From the NCBI GenBank assembly GCA_027488135.1, contig JAIYCH010000090.1:1-38063 (forward strand): 38,063 nucleotides of DNA, in the 5' to 3' direction. The stretch comes from Saprospiraceae bacterium. Lineage in GTDB: Bacteria; Bacteroidota; Bacteroidia; Chitinophagales; Saprospiraceae. The position numbers were made by a program, and so were the translations under genes. Shown piece after piece: positions 965-27,039 of this stretch. Every line of letters begins with the position of its first letter. Within the stretch, counting starts at the first letter, position 1. The notes under the pieces are model-generated. The model searched no databases. It was given only the letters and a program-made list of their open reading frames with translations, and had not been told where the DNA came from.

Positions 965-2023
965 TCAGGAAGGTAGGTTACTTAATTTTTTGAGATCAAG
1001 AATGATGATGGTTCCTTCAGTAATATCAATATAGCCATCATTTTTAAATTCTGTTAACATTCTGATTACGCTCTCTTTTGCAGTTCCTACAATACGAGCC
1101 AAATCCTCCCTCAGGACATGAAAAGATTTATTATCCTCTTTTTGGCTCAATAATATAAGCGCATCTGCTACTCTTTTCCTCACCGAGTTATAAGCAAGGT
1201 TCAATAATTGTTCTTCCTTCTCCGTAATATTATTCGCTAAAATTTTAATCATTTGGGAAGAAACATCTCTGTTTGCCTGGATAAGAGCCAAGAAATCATC
1301 TTTTGGGATAAGCACAATATCTGTATCCTCCATCGCTGCGGCTGTTTCTGCATGAGCGGTACTTTTCAGTAAATCGACATAGCCTAAAAAATCTCCCTCC
1401 TTGAGCAATTCTATAATATATTCTTTACCTTGATCATGCGTTTTAAAGGTTTTAACCTTACCGGAACGAATGAAGTATAAAAAGCGAGGATTATCCCCTT
1501 CTTCAAAAATGACATCTCTTTTTTTAAAATGTTTCATTTTTTTGTCAATCGATAGATTTTTTAGTGCTTCAAAACCTTTCGCTTCATTGATAAAAGCTCT
1601 TAATCCACTTTCTGACCGATCGAACTCTTTTTTCAGCAACTTAGATTTTTTTAATCTTGTTTCTATCACTGAAAGTAACTCATCTTTATAAAAAGGTTTT
1701 GTAACGTAGTCATCTGCGCCCAGATTCATACCCCTTCTAAAGTCTGATCTTTCAGCTTTTGCCGTTAAAAAGACAAAAGGGATACCCGAGGTATCAGGCC
1801 TTTTACCTAAAATATTAAGCACACCAAACCCGTCTAATTTCGGCATCATGACATCGCATAAAATAAGATCGGGTGCTTGCGTTTGGGCTATTTCGACGCC
1901 TTTTAAACCGTCTTCAGCGGCTAAGACAGTAAAATTAGATAACACAAGAATTTCAATCAAATTTTCTCTAACATCTTCATTGTCTTCAATGACTAAAATT
2001 TTAATGGATTGATTTGTTGACAT
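965..2023 (-). CDS. Response regulator: receiver domain fused to Crp/Fnr-type cNMP-fold and HTH
   Basis: A 352-residue protein. The receiver domain occupies about residues 7-125, with an acidic pocket near IEDNED, phospho-acceptor Asp57 (LILCDVMMP), a Thr in FLTAKA and Lys109 (YVTKPF). A short linker leads to a cyclic-nucleotide-binding beta-roll (about 155-265) and a Crp-type winged HTH (about 275-345). The recognition helix has GTAKESVIR, keeping the Glu317/Arg321 pair that contacts DNA in Crp/Fnr proteins. There are no N-terminal cysteines for an Fe-S cluster, so it is unlikely to sense oxygen itself; control probably comes through phosphorylation. It is the second gene after the kinase, with an 11-base gap, so the two very likely form a pair. 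Functionally it looks like FixJ and FixK combined in one chain (inference). Confidence 0.9.
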   Translation of the reverse strand: MSTNQSIKILVIEDNEDVRENLIEILVLSNFTVLAAEDGLKGVEIAQTQAPDLILCDVMMPKLDGFGVLNILGKRPDTSGIPFVFLTAKAERSDFRRGMNLGADDYVTKPFYKDELLSVIETRLKKSKLLKKEFDRSESGLRAFINEAKGFEALKNLSIDKKMKHFKKRDVIFEEGDNPRFLYFIRSGKVKTFKTHDQGKEYIIELLKEGDFLGYVDLLKSTAHAETAAAMEDTDIVLIPKDDFLALIQANRDVSSQMIKILANNITEKEEQLLNLAYNSVRKRVADALILLSQKEDNKSFHVLREDLARIVGTAKESVIRMLTEFKNDGYIDITEGTIIILDLKKLSNLPS

Positions 2024-2034
2024 ATTTTAATTTT

Positions 2035-3705
2035 TTAAATTGATGAAATCCGTGGCAATGAGATTTTAAAAATGGTACCTACACCCGGATGGCTTTCAAA
2101 ATGAATGGAACCATCCATCAGTTCCAAATAACGTTTCACAATGGTTAAACCCAGACCAGTTCCTTGAATATTCTCCACATTGTGGGCTCTGAAAAATCGG
2201 GTAAACAAGTGTTCCTGCTCTTCAGATGGAATACCAATTCCCTCATCCCGAATAGAAAAATAAAGCGATTTTTCATCCATAGAAAATTCAAAATAGATAG
2301 ATTTACCTTGTTCTGAATATTTAATGGCATTTGAAAATAAGTTGAGTAAAATATTTTTGAGTAATTTATGATCTAAAAACAAAACGGTCTTCAGATTATC
2401 CGTTGGTGAAATAACTTTTTGCCCCGGCTTAAGAATAGGCAGAATATCATCCAATAAATCATTACAAAAATCATTGAACATAAATTCGACGGGATGCGAT
2501 AAAACTTTACCTTCTTCGAGTTTACTCAATGAAAGGAAATCATTAAGAATACTGGTTAAATTATTCACAGCGGAACGGATTCTAATAATATGTTTCTCTC
2601 TTTTTTGATCTTGTCCACCGTCATTATAAGCTTCTATGAGTTCAGCGGAGGAGAGAATAGCACTTAAAGGCGTTCTAAATTCATGAGAAGCCATGGAGAC
2701 GAATCTAGATTTTAAATGATTCAATTCCTTCTCTCTTTCGTACGCTTTACGCAGCGCTTTCTCCTTTTCAAGGAGGGCGTTTTCGGCACTTTTTCTTTCC
2801 TGGATTTCAAATTCCAGCTTTTTATTAATATTCAGCAGTTGATTAATTGCGGCAGCTAATTCTTCGGTGCGGCGGGAGACGCGTTTCTCCAACTCCGCAT
2901 TCATACTAAGAATTCTCTGTTCTGCATCCCTAACATCGGAAATATCAATACCTGAACATATCAATCCAACGACGTCACCATTTGACTCTGTCAACAAGCT
3001 ATTTTTCCAGGCATATTGTTTGACCTCCCCATCAACATTAATAGCTGTAGTTTCAAAAGAATCAAGTAAAGGAATATTTCCTGACATCATCTCCATAAGA
3101 GCCAATTGAAGTGGGGCTGTTTCATCAGGTGGAAGTATGAGATTAAACCAATACTGAGTAATGACTTCCTCGTGTTTTAAGCCCACGAAGGATAAACCCT
3201 TTTGATTAAGATTAATGATTTTAGTTTGGCGATCTAAAACCACGTTAATCGTATTGGCTACATCGAAATACATTTCGATTTTTTCTTTAGCGGAAATTAG
3301 TTCCCTTTCATTTTGTTTTTGTTCTGTCAAATCGTGAACAATGCCCGTGTAAAGCACAGTATTAGTCAAACGCACCTCACTAATACTCAGGTAACAAGGG
3401 AAAACGGTATTATTTTTCCTTTTTCCTTCTACTTCCCTTCCAATACCAATAATCTTTTTTTCCCCTGTTTTATGGTAATTCTTAAGATACCCATCATGCT
3501 TTTCACTATATTTTCCCGGCATTAACATATTGATATTTCTACCAATTAATTCATCTATATGATAACCAAATAGTTCCGACGCAGCATTATTAACCTTAAG
3601 GATAATGCCAAGTTGATCAATAATAATGATACCATCTGTTGCGGTTTGAATAACTGCAGCGAGCTGAAGAGAAGCTATATCCTGATGGTCCAATTTATTT
3701 TCCAT
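2035..3705 (-). CDS. PAS-PAS sensor histidine kinase with a FixL-like haem PAS domain
   Basis: A 556-residue protein with no membrane segment, so it is probably cytoplasmic. PAS 1 is at about residues 10-128, PAS 2 at about 140-260, and a coiled coil at about 262-335. A HisKA domain follows with His341 in MASHEFRTPL, then a HATPase domain (about 435-552) with N-box FSNAIKYS, G1 DEGIGIP and G2 GTGLGL. PAS 1 strongly resembles the haem PAS of rhizobial FixL: it has MLMPGKYSEKHDGY then IIGIGR. His70 and Arg90 are 20 residues apart, as are the haem-ligand His200 and ligand-sensing Arg220 of Bradyrhizobium FixL. An oxygen or other gas ligand is therefore likely but unproven. The gene lies directly upstream of the receiver-Crp regulator. 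Confidence 0.9.
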   Translation of the reverse strand: MENKLDHQDIASLQLAAVIQTATDGIIIIDQLGIILKVNNAASELFGYHIDELIGRNINMLMPGKYSEKHDGYLKNYHKTGEKKIIGIGREVEGKRKNNTVFPCYLSISEVRLTNTVLYTGIVHDLTEQKQNERELISAKEKIEMYFDVANTINVVLDRQTKIINLNQKGLSFVGLKHEEVITQYWFNLILPPDETAPLQLALMEMMSGNIPLLDSFETTAINVDGEVKQYAWKNSLLTESNGDVVGLICSGIDISDVRDAEQRILSMNAELEKRVSRRTEELAAAINQLLNINKKLEFEIQERKSAENALLEKEKALRKAYEREKELNHLKSRFVSMASHEFRTPLSAILSSAELIEAYNDGGQDQKREKHIIRIRSAVNNLTSILNDFLSLSKLEEGKVLSHPVEFMFNDFCNDLLDDILPILKPGQKVISPTDNLKTVLFLDHKLLKNILLNLFSNAIKYSEQGKSIYFEFSMDEKSLYFSIRDEGIGIPSEEQEHLFTRFFRAHNVENIQGTGLGLTIVKRYLELMDGSIHFESHPGVGTIFKISLPRISSI

Positions 3706-3749
3706 AATACAATATGAGCGGCTATATTATTCAAAAATCAGATAGTCTA

Positions 3750-3763
3750 TTGATAAATATCAT
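3750..3763. promoter_or_regulatory. FNR/FixK-like palindrome
   Basis: TTGATAAATATCAT matches the FNR/FixK/Anr consensus TTGAT-N4-ATCAA at 9 of 10 defined positions. It lies between the divergent kinase (ATG at 3705) and the thioredoxin-like gene (ATG at 3856), centred 51 bases from the kinase start. A position near -41 of a kinase promoter would be compatible with Crp/Fnr-type activation. The linked regulator's recognition helix keeps the Glu and Arg expected for a TTGA-type half-site. Auto-regulation is an inference. Confidence 0.5.
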
Positions 3764-3855: not shown

Positions 3856-4152
3856 ATGCCAGCTATCCATCAAGTAAAGTTATTAGGTATCGGTGCCTCC
3901 AAGGACAAAGCTTTGCGTCTCCTGGTTGATCAAGCTATGTCTGCTTTAAACATTCATTGGCCTATTGAGGAAATAAAAGATATAAATCTTCTTATTCATT
4001 ATGGCATAACTGGCATTCCTGCTTTAATCATTGATGATAATGTAATATTTCAAGTCAGTGTACCTAGCTATTCTGAATTGCTTCAGGTTTTTAAGGAATT
4101 CATCACAAAGGAAAATGAGCAAAAGCTTTACATTAGCAAAATCCCAAAATAG
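3856..4152 (+). CDS. Thioredoxin-fold protein lacking the redox cysteines
   Basis: A 98-residue protein resembling the small 'redox-active disulfide protein 2' / thioredoxin_3 family. It has an N-terminal strand (VKLLGIG), a following helix, an INLLIHYGITGIPALIIDD segment with the conserved cis-Pro (IPAL), and a closing helix. Where the family has a CxxC motif straight after the first strand (GxGCxxC), this protein has GASKDK at residues 13-18. It contains no cysteine at all, so it cannot act as a thiol-disulfide oxidoreductase. A binding or regulatory role is possible. It is divergent from the histidine kinase, and its last 20 bases overlap the end of the convergent UspA gene. Confidence 0.7.
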   Translation: MPAIHQVKLLGIGASKDKALRLLVDQAMSALNIHWPIEEIKDINLLIHYGITGIPALIIDDNVIFQVSVPSYSELLQVFKEFITKENEQKLYISKIPK

Positions 4153-4927
4153 GTCTGTCTATTTGAAAGGTAATTTGTTTGCTAACACTTTTATGCAATA
4201 AATCACCAATAAATCCTCTCGTTGGCAGATAAAGTGCTAAAATAGCTGGTTCGTTGGCCTTCAAAAACTGAAATATGCCATCGACAACCTCCTCATTTGA
4301 AATCTGATGAATCTGCCCTAATCCTTCAAAACTTGTTTTACTCGAACCTACCGGATGATTATCATCATTAGGTTTTACCACATGAATAAACTCAATTTGA
4401 GTCCGTAGATAGGTAGAAAAATCCTTTAAATTTGTCAAAACGGTATCTTCGCCCTCTTCAAAATTAGTGGCATAAACCATTTTAAACCATTTATTGAACG
4501 TAGCTTCTTTTGGAATGACCAATACTGGACAGGGTGAATGTCTCAACACATGGGTAGTAATACTTCCAAGCCATTTCTCTAATCTACTGCGTTCCCCTTG
4601 GGTGGCCATGATGATTAAATCATAACTCTCCGCTAATTTATCAATTTCATAACTTATATCTATACCATATTGCAAGCCCGATTGCCCCAAAAGACCCTGA
4701 GGAATATCTTTTACAAAATTTGACATTTGTACCTCCAGACCCTCACGCTTTTCTTTGATCATTTCCTCCAAATAGATGGGAGGTAAATTGGCAGCATCTA
4801 CCGAAGCCAACTGATACACCGTCCAAACATCAATAACAGCATTAAATTCCTTAGCAAAATCAATAGCATATTGAAGCGCGTGTTGAGAGACTTCCGAAAA
4901 ATCGGTAGGAAAAAGTATTTTCTTCAT
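4133..4927 (-). CDS. Universal stress protein, tandem UspA domains
   Basis: A 264-residue cytoplasmic protein, about twice a single Usp domain. Domain 1 (about residues 1-142) begins MKKILFPTDFSE and ends with a nucleotide-binding-like stretch, ATQGERSRLEKWLGS then CPVLVIP. It is close to the G-2x-G-9x-G(S/T) ATP motif, but Ser replaces the second Gly and the following spacing is shorter. Domain 2 (about 148-264) is more diverged and shows no clear ATP motif. Bacteroidota often carry such tandem Usps in low-oxygen or stress regulons. Its place beside a probable oxygen-sensing two-component system supports that (inference). It is convergent with, and overlaps, the thioredoxin-like gene. Confidence 0.9.
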   Translation of the reverse strand: MKKILFPTDFSEVSQHALQYAIDFAKEFNAVIDVWTVYQLASVDAANLPPIYLEEMIKEKREGLEVQMSNFVKDIPQGLLGQSGLQYGIDISYEIDKLAESYDLIIMATQGERSRLEKWLGSITTHVLRHSPCPVLVIPKEATFNKWFKMVYATNFEEGEDTVLTNLKDFSTYLRTQIEFIHVVKPNDDNHPVGSSKTSFEGLGQIHQISNEEVVDGIFQFLKANEPAILALYLPTRGFIGDLLHKSVSKQITFQIDRPILGFC

Positions 4928-12701: not shown

Positions 12702-13751
12702 ATGTCAGAAAAAAAAACCTTTACTCCTGATAATGACCCTACTGCATCGAGTAGAAAGCAGGATCACATTGAACTTGCCTTCCGGTCTCAGGTTTCATCA
12801 GCCGATATACGGAACGAATTTTACTATGAGCCGCTTCTTTCTGCCCATCCTGCTGACGCCTCTCTACTCGAAACTCCTTTTGGATCAAAAGTAATGCGTG
12901 CGCCATTATGGGTTTCCAGTATGACAGGAGGTACGGCATTGGCTGGAAAAATTAATAAAAATCTGGCGCTTGCCTGTGCCGAATTTGGCCTGGGTTTAGG
13001 TCTCGGATCTTGCAGACCCTTGCTTTTCAGTGATGAAACATTAAGCGACTATGCCGTCAGGCCCATTTTAGGCGAGAGTGTTCCCTTTTATGCCAATTTG
13101 GGCATTGCTCAAATCGAAAAATTGTGGCTGCAGAAAGAATTATTCAGAATCCCTGCTTTAATTGAAAAACTAGCGGCAGATGGCCTAATTATTCATATCA
13201 ATCCTCTACAGGAATGGCTACAACCCGAAGGAGACAGATTTACCTATCCTCCCATTTTTATTATTCAGGAACTCATCCGCCATTATCCAGAAATTTCACT
13301 CATCGTCAAAGAGGTGGGGCAAGGAATGGGGCCGCAAAGTCTTAAAAAACTGCTTATGTTACCTCTCACTGCGGTAGAATTTGCAGCAGGAGGTGGAACA
13401 AATTTTTCAAAATTAGAGCTCTTTCGCGCCCACCCCGACCGTGCCGAAGCCTTAGATCCCTTAACCAAAGTAGGTCACGATGCCAATCAAATGCTTGGCT
13501 TTTGTAATGATATTTTCTTGAACCATGCACCAGATATAAAATGTAAACTCCTTATCATTTCCGGAGGAATTCAAGACTTTTTACACGGTCATTATTTAGT
13601 AAAGAAATCTAAAATACCTGCAGTTTATGGTCAGGCTTCCTTATTTTTAAAATACGCCAGAGATGATTATTCAACCCTACAATCGTTTGTCAAACATCAG
13701 ATTGAAGGACTTGTTGTAGCTAATCATTTTTTAACTATGCCACCGTCCTAA
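12702..13751 (+). CDS. fni: Type 2 isopentenyl-diphosphate delta-isomerase
   Basis: A 349-residue FMN- and NADPH-dependent enzyme that interconverts IPP and DMAPP. Type 2 features are an N-terminal RKQDHIELAF, the SSMTGGTA strand, the active-site region HINPLQEW, VKEVGQGM, the glycine-rich AAGGGTNF and the phosphate-binding ISGGIQDF. It is unrelated to the Nudix-type (type 1) enzyme. It is the first gene of an operon with HMG-CoA reductase (12-base gap) and a GHMP kinase. This shows that isoprenoids here are made by the mevalonate route, where an isomerase is essential. Confidence 0.93.
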   Translation: MSEKKTFTPDNDPTASSRKQDHIELAFRSQVSSADIRNEFYYEPLLSAHPADASLLETPFGSKVMRAPLWVSSMTGGTALAGKINKNLALACAEFGLGLGLGSCRPLLFSDETLSDYAVRPILGESVPFYANLGIAQIEKLWLQKELFRIPALIEKLAADGLIIHINPLQEWLQPEGDRFTYPPIFIIQELIRHYPEISLIVKEVGQGMGPQSLKKLLMLPLTAVEFAAGGGTNFSKLELFRAHPDRAEALDPLTKVGHDANQMLGFCNDIFLNHAPDIKCKLLIISGGIQDFLHGHYLVKKSKIPAVYGQASLFLKYARDDYSTLQSFVKHQIEGLVVANHFLTMPPS

Positions 13752-13763
13752 TGCATCTCCCCC

Positions 13764-15095
13764 ATGAGTGATAAAATAATTTCCGGATTTTCAAAATTAT
13801 CTAAAAAGGAAAAAATAGATTGGGTAAATACACACTATGGTAATGCTCCTGTCACATCCAATACCGATGATTTCTCCGTTTTTTGTCATGAAAATCCAGC
13901 CATTCAAGAAGTAATAGATGGATTTAGTGAAAATACTATAAGTAATTTTATTCTTCCTTATGGTATAGCTCCCAATTTTTTAATCAATGGTGTGGTTTAT
14001 GCCGTACCTATGGTGATTGAGGAGAGTTCCGTGGTGGCTGCTGCTTCCAGTGCATCAAAATTCTGGCTATCCAGGGGCGGCTTTACATCGACTGTTTTAT
14101 CTACCGTTAAAATTGGACAGATCCATTTCAAATGGTTTGGTGATACTTCCCTGTTATATCGTTTATTTCCTGACATAAAAGAGAAGCTTCTACTGGAGAG
14201 TAACCATTTAGGTGCTAATATGGTAAAAAGAGGGGGTGGCGTCACAGATATAGAACTCCTTCATTTCGGTCATTTTGAGGAAGGTCTTTATCAACTTAGG
14301 GTCAAATTTGAGACGGTAAATTCTATGGGTGCCAATTTTATTAATACCCATTTAGAATCGTTTTCATCGTCACTCAAAGAATATTTTAATTCCTGCAGCT
14401 TGCTTTCTCCTGAAGACAGAGAGCTCCTTATTATTATGTCCATTTTATCAAATTATACGCCTGAATGTTTGGTAACGGCCACGGTCAGTTGTCCTGTCAG
14501 TGATTTTAATGGCATATATAAAGATATGGATGCTGCTGAATTTGCCAATAAATTTCAACAAGCTGTGCGTATTGCTGAAATTGATCCATACAGAGCCACC
14601 ACACATAATAAGGGCATTTTTAACGGTATTGACGCCGTTATTATGGCTACCGGTAATGATTTCAGAGCTGTAGAAGCAGGAGGACATGCTTACGCAGCAA
14701 AAGATGGTTCCTACAAATCTTTGAGTGTTTGCCAGATTGAAAATGATATTTTTACATTTTCCCTGACGCTTCCGCTGGCTATTGGAACCGTCGGCGGCTT
14801 AACTCACCTGCATCCTTTAGCAAAAAAAACACTCTCCATTTTAGGTGAGCCCGATGCTCCCACGCTTATGCAAATCGTTGCTGCAGTGGGCCTTGCACAA
14901 AATTTTGCCGCAGTGAAGTCATTAATTACTTCAGGTATCCAGGACGGGCACATGCGTATGCACCTTATGAATATCCTGGTCCATCTACAGGCGAATGAGG
15001 AGGAAAAAAGCAGCGCTTTACATCATTTCAGCAAGATACCTGTGTCTTTTTCCTCGGTTCGTGAGTTCTTAGATTCAATGCGGTCTGAAAAATGA
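13764..15095 (+). CDS. mvaA: Hydroxymethylglutaryl-CoA reductase, class II type
   Basis: A 443-residue enzyme linking HMG-CoA and mevalonate. Class II features are the ENTISNFILPYGIAPNF start of the domain, the catalytic Glu in VIEESSVVAAAS, the catalytic Lys in HNKGIFNGIDAV, the Asp in GNDFRAVEAGG and the C-terminal catalytic His in GHMRMHL. Database names often call this class 'degradative', after the Pseudomonas mevalonii enzyme. Its position between IPP isomerase and a GHMP kinase argues for biosynthesis. Its stop overlaps the ATG of the next gene by four bases (15092-15095), suggesting translational coupling. Confidence 0.95.
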   Translation: MSDKIISGFSKLSKKEKIDWVNTHYGNAPVTSNTDDFSVFCHENPAIQEVIDGFSENTISNFILPYGIAPNFLINGVVYAVPMVIEESSVVAAASSASKFWLSRGGFTSTVLSTVKIGQIHFKWFGDTSLLYRLFPDIKEKLLLESNHLGANMVKRGGGVTDIELLHFGHFEEGLYQLRVKFETVNSMGANFINTHLESFSSSLKEYFNSCSLLSPEDRELLIIMSILSNYTPECLVTATVSCPVSDFNGIYKDMDAAEFANKFQQAVRIAEIDPYRATTHNKGIFNGIDAVIMATGNDFRAVEAGGHAYAAKDGSYKSLSVCQIENDIFTFSLTLPLAIGTVGGLTHLHPLAKKTLSILGEPDAPTLMQIVAAVGLAQNFAAVKSLITSGIQDGHMRMHLMNILVHLQANEEEKSSALHHFSKIPVSFSSVREFLDSMRSEK

Positions 15096-16030
15096 ATGGG
15101 ACAACTTATTTTTCACATGGAAAACTCTTAATAACAGGAGAATATGCTGTTTTAGACGGGGCAAAAGCATTAGCCCTGCCTACTACATGTGGTCAGCATC
15201 TGCATTTTCATCCCCAACCTGGTTCACATTGCCTCCTTTGGGAGAGCTTCACTGATAAAGGACATTTGTGGTTTTCTGCCTCCTGGGAGCTACCTTCCAT
15301 GAAGGTTATTGTCGGTGAGGGGTTGACTGAAACAGATATACTCACCTCATTATTAACCAGTATGATGTCAGAAAAGGGACTTCCTGCTTCTTTTTTTGAA
15401 GGCAAAATAGAAACCCGTCTCGATTTTCCAAGAGAATGGGGACTAGGAACCAGTTCCACTCTTATCTCTTTACTTTCAAAATGGACTCAAATCAATCCTT
15501 ATTATTTGTTGGAAAAATCATTCGGAGGTTCCGGATATGATATTGCCGCCGCCGCCGCAACTGGTCCATTCACCTATAGAAGAATAAAGGAAAATAGCGA
15601 AAAACCTGATGTGAAAACAGCGCCGTTTAACCCCTTGTTTTTAAACAAAATTTACTTCCTTTTCTCTGGCAAAAAGAAAAACAGCAGAGAAGGAATTTCA
15701 AGCTACCGTTCTAAATCATTAAACCCTGCCTATATTTCCGAAATATCACAACTCACTGAAAAAATTCTTACCGTTGAGCATTTTTCAGACTTTTGCGCAC
15801 TGATAAAAAAACACGAAGAAATTACCGGCCTTCAACTGGATTTAATACCTATACAGGAGGAATATTTTTCAGATTTTCAAGGAGTAGTAAAATCTCTGGG
15901 CGCTTGGGGCGGTGATTTCTTGATGATTTTAACCGAACTACCCCAAAGTGACATTATAATTTACTTCAAAAAGAAAGGTTTTTCAACCCTTTTCACCTAT
16001 AACGAATTGATATTTAGTGAAAATAAATAA
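15092..16030 (+). CDS. GYDIA-type GHMP kinase (probable mevalonate-pathway kinase)
   Basis: A 312-residue GHMP-fold kinase. The N-terminal HGKLLITGEYAVLDGAKALA matches the mevalonate-kinase-like start. The phosphate loop is GLGTSSTL (Thr instead of the usual Ser), and GSGYDIAAAA is the motif for which the Bacteroidota GYDIA subfamily is named. The third GHMP motif is GAWGGDF. It is translationally coupled to HMG-CoA reductase, so mevalonate or phosphomevalonate is the probable substrate. Which phosphorylation step it performs cannot be told from sequence. Diphosphomevalonate decarboxylase and the other kinases are not in this window. Confidence 0.88.
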   Translation: MNGTTYFSHGKLLITGEYAVLDGAKALALPTTCGQHLHFHPQPGSHCLLWESFTDKGHLWFSASWELPSMKVIVGEGLTETDILTSLLTSMMSEKGLPASFFEGKIETRLDFPREWGLGTSSTLISLLSKWTQINPYYLLEKSFGGSGYDIAAAAATGPFTYRRIKENSEKPDVKTAPFNPLFLNKIYFLFSGKKKNSREGISSYRSKSLNPAYISEISQLTEKILTVEHFSDFCALIKKHEEITGLQLDLIPIQEEYFSDFQGVVKSLGAWGGDFLMILTELPQSDIIIYFKKKGFSTLFTYNELIFSENK

Positions 16031-26050: not shown

Positions 26051-26201
26051 ATTAAAATAGGAAATTTGCTTAAAAATATACCCGATTTTAATGCAGAATC
26101 TAGCTTAATATTTCGGACAAAAAACAAAAATTTAATTTTGATATAAAATCTCCCCTTTTCTGGTTTTGGTTTATACCATGATAATGGTGACTTTTAATGT
26201 A

Positions 26202-26209
26202 TATCTTTG
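26202..26209 (+). promoter_or_regulatory. Possible -7 element before the Rpn gene
   Basis: TATCTTTG fits TAnnTTTG. It lies 14 bases before the ATG at 26224 and inside the longer frame starting at 26197, which supports 26224 as the true start. No correctly spaced TTTG is seen upstream. Confidence 0.35.
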
Positions 26210-26223
26210 AAAAAAATAGCACC

Positions 26224-27039
26224 ATGAAATTTGCCAATGTAACGGATGATATTGCTTTTAGAAAAATTTTTGGGGACGAAAATAAGAAAGTGGTACTCAT
26301 TTCCTTTTTGAATGCAGTACTTTGTCTTGAGGGTGAACACAAGATTACGGATTTGTATTTTCCAAATACCTTCCAACTACCTAAATTCAGAGATGGAAAA
26401 TCTACCATTCTTGACGTAAAAGCAACGGATGAAAGTGGGAGATCCTTTTTAGTAGAAATGCAGGTAGCAGATATAAATGGGTTCAGCAAACGTGTACTTT
26501 ATTATACTTCCCTTGGATATGTCTCCCAAATAGACCGTGGGGTATTTTATGATAAGCTCCGGCCTACCATTTTTATTGGAATTCTTCAATTTAACATGTC
26601 AAATAATGACGAATATATCCATAGACATCAAATTTTGAATGTGGAGACTGGCGAAAGACTATTAATGGATATGGAATTCAATTTTATAGAATTGCCTAAA
26701 TTTAAGTTGGAGTTAAAAGACTTAAATACAGTTTTGGAAAAATGGATTTACTTTATTAAGGAAGCTGAACATTTGAATATTATTCCTGAAAATATGGATG
26801 ATAAAGGATTACAAACTGCGTTTGAATCAGCAAATATCCAAACCTGGACCAAAGCAGAACTTCTGGCCTACGATTATTCTGGCATGAGAGAAACAGATGA
26901 ACGACTAAGAATGGAAAAAGGAATGGAGAAGGGAATGGAAGTAGGAATGGAGAAAGGCAAATTGGAGATTGCTCAAAAAATGAAACTAAGTGGCATGGCA
27001 TCTTCTCTTATCCTGGAACTAACGGGATTGAATCTTTAA
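26224..27039 (+). CDS. Rpn family PD-(D/E)XK nuclease / transposase-like protein
   Basis: With the start at 26224 this is 271 residues. It begins MKFANVTDDIAFRKIFGDE, the usual start of this family in Bacteroidota. The PD-(D/E)XK core is ILDVKATDESGRSFLVEMQV, with Asp, Glu and Gln positions in order. The C-terminal part has EKGME-type repeats (about residues 230-248) before a short helical end, also common in the family. Rpn proteins of E. coli are DNA endonucleases that promote recA-independent recombination, and newer work links some to phage defence. It stands alone between a methyltransferase and a terminator, with no inverted repeats of an insertion sequence. Upstream start 26197 is rejected. 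Confidence 0.9.
   Translation: MKFANVTDDIAFRKIFGDENKKVVLISFLNAVLCLEGEHKITDLYFPNTFQLPKFRDGKSTILDVKATDESGRSFLVEMQVADINGFSKRVLYYTSLGYVSQIDRGVFYDKLRPTIFIGILQFNMSNNDEYIHRHQILNVETGERLLMDMEFNFIELPKFKLELKDLNTVLEKWIYFIKEAEHLNIIPENMDDKGLQTAFESANIQTWTKAELLAYDYSGMRETDERLRMEKGMEKGMEVGMEKGKLEIAQKMKLSGMASSLILELTGLNL

Follow-up and report, generated by a model that had tools for sequence, protein, structure and literature searches.

Oxygen bound to the haem of FixL keeps this kinase off, and the deoxy form is on. Here we analyse a gene pair in a 38,063-nt stretch of DNA from a Saprospiraceae bacterium (hereafter the window; GenBank assembly GCA_027488135.1, contig JAIYCH010000090.1), which encodes a histidine kinase with a FixL-type PAS domain (PAS 1) and REC-Crp, a response regulator that joins a receiver to a Crp module. 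We consider it likely that the two form a low-oxygen switch, in which the haem-type kinase directly activates REC-Crp and REC-Crp, by binding DNA, controls genes of high-affinity respiration and of stress. Such wiring would be shorter than the three steps of the route in nitrogen-fixing bacteria. In mycobacteria, the haem kinases DosS and DosT, which sense through a GAF domain, act with the LuxR-type regulator DosR to induce hypoxia genes whose products include many usp, CBS and Hsp20 proteins. In the rhizobial route (PMC7888657), fixK is induced by a response regulator, and its product is then the next to act. The NmpRSTU system of Myxococcus xanthus uses a protoglobin sensor, a phosphorelay and an NtrC-like regulator, and ties a haem kinase to hypoxia and to genes for cbb3, a P-type ATPase and hemN (PMC11841059, which mentions universal stress proteins 12 times, at least partly in its reference list).

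The pair resembles the rhizobial FixL-FixJ-FixK and hFixL-FxkR-FixK cascades, as described in PMC7888657, in having a FixL-type haem PAS kinase (with haem predicted here), a Crp/Fnr-type box and cbb3 targets. It differs from both in that receiver and Crp module reside in one protein, and from FixL-FixJ in that the partner is not a receiver with a LuxR-type helix-turn-helix. Moreover, the kinase scores far below the NCBIfam equivalog cut-off for rhizobial FixL (sens_FixL_Rhizob, 152.6 versus 850 bits). With FNR and FNR-like proteins REC-Crp shares the Crp fold, the helix-turn-helix and the box type, and in 18 of 30 FNR-only genomes of this order the FNR-like proteins come with the same 22-bp box pairs. 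Unlike FNR, it lacks the cysteine set, and the signal would instead arrive through the receiver. The link of a predicted haem kinase to cbb3, ATPase and hemN-like genes is reminiscent of NmpRSTU, from which the use of PAS and REC-Crp sets the pair apart. Likewise, the genes behind the boxes repeatedly encode Usp, CBS and HSP20 families, as in the DosR set, although a mycobacterial GAF sensor and LuxR-type regulator are replaced here by PAS and REC-Crp. By family tests the system is neither FixLJ nor FNR; it is one that would work like the FixL-FixK pathway in one step. A search of openly licensed papers, by titles and the first lines of abstracts, turned up no description of a REC-Crp regulator of this kind; older response-regulator censuses may well list REC-Crp fusions.

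A PAS kinase gene adjoins the gene of a receiver-Crp fusion

A preliminary description of the window had placed a haem-PAS kinase and a receiver-Crp/Fnr fusion regulator at 965-3705, and both genes are indeed found there on the same strand, with the kinase gene 11 bp upstream of the regulator gene. Open reading frame (ORF) and Pfam scans gave the following features (positions in the window; aa, amino acids).

965..2023, minus strand: REC-Crp response regulator, 352 aa (ORF and Pfam scan)
1664..1999, minus strand: receiver domain Response_reg, regulator residues 9-120 (Pfam, E 9.4e-27)
1853-1855, minus strand: predicted phosphoacceptor Asp57 of the receiver, invariant in 17 aligned REC-Crp rows
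1271..1534, minus strand: cNMP-binding-fold domain cNMP_binding, regulator residues 164-251 (Pfam, E 1.3e-23)
977..1177, minus strand: Crp-type helix-turn-helix HTH_Crp_2, regulator residues 283-349, recognition motif GTAKESVIR (Pfam, E 3.1e-14)
2035..3705, minus strand: PAS-PAS histidine kinase, 556 aa (ORF and Pfam scan)
3331..3666, minus strand: PAS 1, FixL-type, kinase residues 14-125 (Pfam, alignment, tree, model)
3496-3498, minus strand: His70 of PAS 1
3436-3438, minus strand: Arg90 of PAS 1
2929..3246, minus strand: PAS 2 (PAS_4), kinase residues 154-259 (Pfam)
2509..2712, minus strand: HisKA domain, kinase residues 332-399 (Pfam)
2050..2373, minus strand: HATPase_c domain, kinase residues 445-552 (Pfam)

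The Pfam matches agree with the proposed fusion of a receiver to a Crp/Fnr module; a winged-helix or LuxR-type output, as in OmpR- or NarL-type regulators, is not among the Pfam domains of the regulator, whose output is the Crp module. The recognition motif form GTAKESVIR is also common to FNR-like proteins. Two further predictions held as well: a hydropathy scan revealed no membrane span in the kinase, and the iron-sulfur (Fe-S) cysteine set of FNR is absent from the regulator, whose only cysteine lies in the receiver (compared with five to eight cysteines in ten FNR-like rows). A structure model of the whole regulator (mean predicted local distance difference test score, pLDDT, 81.9; predicted TM score, pTM, 0.41; linker below 50) was not drawn on as evidence.

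PAS 1 is a FixL-type PAS domain

Searched against solved structures, PAS 1 matched FixL chains with an E-value of 7e-28, followed by DosP as the next family (E 2.8e-14). It is 43% identical to Bradyrhizobium FixL (BjFixL), and its median identity is 51% to FixL-type rows and 32% to the MG-type rows described below. The FixL PAS pattern of proximal His, distal Arg and hydrophobic triad is present in PAS 1, the pocket positions and residue roles (His200, Arg220, the triad and others) being those that we presume for FixL. In the alignment, PAS 1 retains His200, Ile215, Arg220, Leu236 and Ile238 of the Bradyrhizobium protein and departs from it at Arg206 (Asn), Asp212 (Glu) and His214 (Lys). The positions of His200, Ile215, Arg220 and Leu236 are constant in all 13 FixL-type loci, with Ile or Val at position 238, and an alignment of 12 FixL-type rows shows no variation at His70 or Arg90.

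Comparison of structures, suggested in the preliminary description as a check, pointed the same way. A model of PAS 1 built from 12 FixL-type rows (mean pLDDT 88) retrieved FixL structures as its first 20 Foldseek matches in the PDB, then E. coli DOS structures and after these another haem PAS and LOV domains; its superposition on FixL 1drm gave a TM score of 0.93 by target length and a root-mean-square deviation of 1.6. A grouping of PAS 1 with PAS domains known not to bind haem had been named as evidence against haem, and the opposite was observed: in a careful tree of 63 PAS rows, 16 FixL-type rows and BjFixL split from 46 MG-type rows with a support of 100/100, although the bootstrap had not fully settled and the rows include no proven non-haem PAS.

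The preliminary description had recognized a FixL haem signature by His70 and Arg90 at a spacing of 20 residues within an IIGIGR context. Both residues, the IIGIGR stretch and the FixL type by tree stand. The spacing itself was rejected as a haem test, as an Arg at +20 from the His also occurs in 17 of the 39 MG-type loci (manual count). The FixL type is marked by Ile at +15 (Ile215), the IIGIGR stretch and the tree rather than by spacing. The FixL histidine is present in 53 of 53 aligned PAS domains from 52 partner kinases, and a search of the window's own genome with PAS 1 returned only one other match (25% identity, E 3e-4).

PAS 1 might have kept the FixL fold and lost haem binding, with the kinase sensing otherwise or through PAS 2. 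According to a census of PAS domains (PMC10468136), the histidine occurs in 60% of the FixL/DosP cluster and is missing in about 40%, where function is lost; furthermore, Arg206 of FixL is an Asn in PAS 1. However, the same census names the histidine as the primary determinant of haem binding in this cluster, and His, Ile215, Arg220 and Leu236 are retained in every FixL-type locus, leaving haem loss very unlikely.

The pair is conserved and its PAS type varies

Of 119 genomes of the order, 63 have a REC-Crp orthologue (E 1e-50 or better). We studied 61 loci, comprising the window and 60 fetched of 66 match rows from other genomes; G068, G085, G057, G028, G099 and the partial row of G115 do not enter the locus counts. 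In 53 of these loci the gene immediately upstream, on the same strand, encodes a kinase, which is of FixL type in 13, of MG type in 39 and truncated in one. The MG-type PAS is defined by an H...R-x-MG-x-G..L pattern and has kept the FixL histidine in each of the 39 aligned loci. For L043, the sole MG-type kinase searched against the PDB, the nearest PAS was that of FixL (E 1e-17), and haem binding may, to judge from these sequences, extend beyond the FixL type to MG-type PAS domains. On a quick regulator tree the PAS type would have changed at least three times, counting loci with an adjacent and complete kinase.

Among contigs of named genomes, most matches were to the receiver only, and 11 of 80 loci held full-length REC-Crp relatives. 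FixL-type kinases accompany those of Arcticibacter svalbardensis and Sphingobacterium corticibacter and MG-type kinases eight of the 11, including Aquimarina and Jiulongibacter, while the Chitinophaga filiformis REC-Crp has no adjacent kinase.

Genes linked to cbb3 oxidase (ccoNO, ccoP, ccoG, ccoS or heavy-metal ATPase) were present within the fetched stretch at 13 of the 61 loci (manual count), the clusters being named from one member each, with ccoNO, ccoG and ccoS above and ccoP and the ATPase below their family cut-offs. A usp gene lies nearby in 12 of the 13 FixL-type loci, the window included, compared with 4 of the 39 loci of MG type and 2 of the 8 that lack a kinase. A family of small proteins of 113-180 aa (for example L057:7286-7711 and L043:5893-6315) was noted at 18 loci in all, mostly MG-type ones (15); several members stand behind a box, and the one member tested had no NCBIfam match.

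A box often paired at 22 bp lies at a fixed distance from the promoter element

An unsupervised search for 5-base dyads in the intergenic DNA of the 61 loci returned ATGAC-N4-GTCAT as the top dyad (10 intergenic, 0 coding), and dyads of CTGAT, ATGAT and TTGAT with the same gap of 4 were among the first nine. Merged into TGAY-N4-RTCA, the box occurs 136 times in 106.6 kb of intergenic DNA compared with 43 times in 667 kb of coding DNA (12.8 versus 0.64 per 10 kb), in 48 of 61 loci. The enrichment is restricted to gap 4; gaps 0-3 and 5-12 yield 3 to 18 intergenic matches each. Full sites are frequently paired: among pairs up to 120 bp apart, 28 have a distance of exactly 22 bp and only 7 have any other. 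In whole genomes, the exact double box was found 165 times in 66 of 119 genomes, compared with none in the backward control of every genome, and 72 of 76 distinct pairs with available surroundings are outside genes.

The boxes are placed with similar precision relative to TAnnTTTG, the consensus of the Bacteroidota -7 element as given in PMC7366714. Among 298 box-gene pairs, in which both boxes of a pair were counted and pair-centred stretches included, the element starts 35 (28 times), 57 (27 times), 36 (7 times) or 58 bp (4 times) from the box start and at no other offset more than twice, 57 being 35 plus 22. A box 35 bp from the -7 element has the position expected of a class II activator. 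The combined pattern, box-N23-TAnnTTTG, is present at 331 sites in the 119 genomes compared with 14 backward controls, in which the promoter element is reversed too.

We scanned 89 of 90 proteins behind boxes. Families behind box pairs in this set of 89 include 8 histidine kinases, 7 E1-E2 ATPases, 6 Usp, 6 CBS, 5 COX1 with FixO, 2 FixG, 2 FixS, 2 HSP20 and 2 radical-SAM proteins. These predicted sites are of the FNR/FixK class, in that boxes of the TGA-N6-TCA type keep a constant distance to the promoters that follow them, among them those of cbb3 and related genes. The two radical-SAM proteins resemble HemN by eye.

Boxes and likely targets in the window and its genome

Two box sites lie in the window, one before the kinase gene and one before a usp gene.

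3750..3763, no strand assigned: box TTGATAAATATCAT, in the stretch between the kinase gene and a thioredoxin-like gene, about 45 bp upstream of the kinase start codon
4997..5010, no strand assigned: box ATGACAAAAATCAC, about 70 bp upstream of the usp start codon
4967..4974, minus strand: promoter element TAGTTTTG (TAnnTTTG), 35 bp from the start of the usp box
4133..4927, minus strand: universal stress protein, likely target (Pfam Usp, E 1e-22)
3856..4152, plus strand: thioredoxin-like protein, possible divergent target (TIGR00412-like, below the family cut-off)

An in-register half-site, ATCA, is located at 3737-3740, 22 bp from the kinase box. The thioredoxin-like (ArsE-type) protein contains no cysteines; a related stretch is fused to usp and divergent from the kinase gene in several relatives, while in the window it is separate and the usp gene lies inverted beside it.

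The exact box-N23-TAnnTTTG pattern occurs at five sites in the window's own genome (0 in the control), one of which is the usp promoter. Three others precede genes for a thioredoxin, a metallo-beta-lactamase/rhodanese protein and a rhodanese, and the fourth faces no clear gene. Allowing up to one mismatch gave 19 sites compared with 3 backward controls; six of the 18 non-usp sites face a gene, with feoA and fumarase among these. Double boxes with up to two mismatches numbered 14, compared with 4 in backward controls. One with a single mismatch lies about 48 bp before a 55-aa ccoS-like ORF followed by ccoN, with TAATTTTC at offset 35 from the nearer box, and a single box before a copper-ATPase-like gene has TACATTTA at 36 (both read directly). 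The contig end truncates the ccoN gene (L194:1-1140, contig C66), which scores 569.5 compared with a cut-off of 583.15 bits, and the readable part of the cbb3 cluster stops there.

PAS-haem domains bind several gases, and PAS 1 could accordingly carry haem and report nitric oxide, carbon monoxide or haem redox, the regulator and box then answering nitrosative or redox stress rather than oxygen. The thioredoxin and rhodanese-domain genes behind three of the other four exact sites would suit such a role. In contrast, cbb3 genes are linked to the pair in 13 of 61 loci and preceded by boxes, and in 30 genomes the regulator gives way to an FNR-like protein, with box pairs of the same kind present in 18. 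We therefore regard a signal other than oxygen as unlikely.

The exact E. coli FNR box TTGAT-N4-ATCAA was dropped as a candidate: it has 18 sites in the window's own genome, and 13 of the 15 that were read lie in ORFs. With up to two mismatches it occurs 69 times in the window (mean of shuffles 47.3, 0 of 100 as high), a count to which we gave no weight.

FNR-like proteins occur with the same boxes

An FNR-like protein was found in 40 of 119 genomes at E 1e-74 or better, a cut chosen by us, and cysteines were seen in the 21 of these 40 proteins that were inspected. Ten aligned FNR-like proteins have invariant cysteines at 10, 13, 59 and 112, whereas the Crp half of 61 REC-Crp rows has none in 36, one in 16 and two to four in 9. 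Of the 56 genomes without REC-Crp, 30 carry an FNR-like protein instead, and both regulators co-occur in 10 genomes compared with 21 expected (Fisher p 1e-5, ignoring genome relatedness). In a quick tree, REC-Crp forms one side of a branch against the FNR-like rows (support 100), and the recognition motif G[TAS]..E[ST]..R is common to 58 of 61 REC-Crp and 10 of 10 FNR-like rows. Exact box pairs are present in 40 of 53 genomes with REC-Crp only, 18 of 30 with FNR only, 5 of 10 with both and 3 of 26 with neither; the corresponding counts of box-N23-TAnnTTTG are 143, 111, 59 and 18. Because the two regulators avoid each other, split in the tree and share recognition motif and boxes, REC-Crp plausibly replaced, or was replaced by, an Fe-S type input on the same promoters. 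Contact between receivers was rejected as the cause of the 22-bp pairing, since FNR-only genomes show the same pairs and the pairing is thus independent of the receiver.

At 21 of the loci L226-L247 and L249, all from genomes without REC-Crp, the FNR-like Crp proteins have a CxxC and further cysteines. In seven cases (for example G100, G080 and G018) a box pair is located immediately downstream of the FNR-like gene and not at its own promoter.

A further possibility is that the boxes belong to another Crp/Fnr protein and that the REC-Crp pair controls something else. A search with REC-Crp did find one other Crp-family protein in the window's own genome (L008), whose recognition stretch differs by eye. 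Exact pairs are far commoner in REC-Crp-only genomes than in those with neither regulator (40/53 versus 3/26), and of the three pair-bearing genomes of the latter group two are incomplete (57% and 83%) and one has a 130-aa receiver fragment. Together with the motif shared by REC-Crp and FNR-like rows, this makes control of the boxes by another protein highly improbable, and REC-Crp is, with good support from these sequence comparisons, probably the protein on the boxes.

Several observations weigh against direct control of these promoters by the kinase and REC-Crp. The same boxes in 18 of 30 FNR-only genomes mean that a box does not identify its binding protein, 13 of 53 REC-Crp-only genomes lack an exact pair, and box-plus-promoter sites persist in 12 of 26 genomes with neither regulator. 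In the window, TAnnTTTG is not at its usual offset from the kinase box, which weakens the case for autoregulation there. In the window's own genome, seven of the 18 non-usp sites lie inside genes and five face no gene, the exact double box was found 0 times, and a second double box with one mismatch falls inside an ORF.

A proposed one-step route from haem kinase to hypoxia regulon

Domain content, the FixL type of PAS 1, the conservation of the pair, the box with its fixed spacing and the kinds of genes that stand behind boxes are direct results of the computation, and a pathway from haem-PAS kinase through REC-Crp to a hypoxia regulon is well supported by it. In this pathway the FixL-like PAS-haem kinase would sense falling oxygen: by analogy with FixL, PAS 1 would bind haem and oxygen, bound oxygen would hold the kinase off and its loss would turn the kinase on. 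The active kinase would then phosphorylate Asp57 in the receiver of its partner. The phosphorylated REC-Crp dimer would bind TGAY-N4-RTCA boxes, often two at 22 bp, upstream of TAnnTTTG and activate class II promoters of a low-oxygen regulon, which is predicted to comprise usp genes and the genes of cbb3 oxidase, of its assembly and of copper handling; in relatives the kinase-regulator pair would belong to it as well.

The preliminary description, whose reading is largely borne out, had seen here the FixL-FixJ-FixK cascade compressed into one step. As function this view fits the Crp/Fnr-type box and its fixed geometry before cbb3, usp and kinase genes, including the usp gene of the window and ccoS-like/ccoN of its own genome. 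As history it is probably not correct, because REC-Crp mostly stands beside the other PAS type (39 of 52), groups beside cysteine-bearing FNR-like proteins and shows at least three changes of PAS type.

Taken jointly, the data would fit a rigid hypoxia-regulon promoter code, with one or two boxes 22 bp apart and 35 bp before TAnnTTTG, across the order and apparently wider in Bacteroidota. It would be read by exchangeable inputs, either a cysteine FNR-like protein or a PAS-His kinase with REC-Crp, with the sensor PAS swapped between FixL and MG type at least three times (quick tree) and the MG-type PAS as a further, undescribed class of haem sensor. We see the case for this combined view as evenly balanced. 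The system would give Bacteroidota an oxygen-sensing pathway whose predicted sensor, regulator, DNA code and targets are all directly testable, and it would illustrate how sensors of the Fe-S and the two-component kind can substitute for one another at a shared set of promoters.

Other genes of the window

Three neighbouring genes at 12702-16030 look by eye like a set of the isoprenoid (mevalonate) pathway, and a 280-aa protein encoded at 26197-27039 may, again by eye, be an Rpn-type (transposase-like nuclease) protein.

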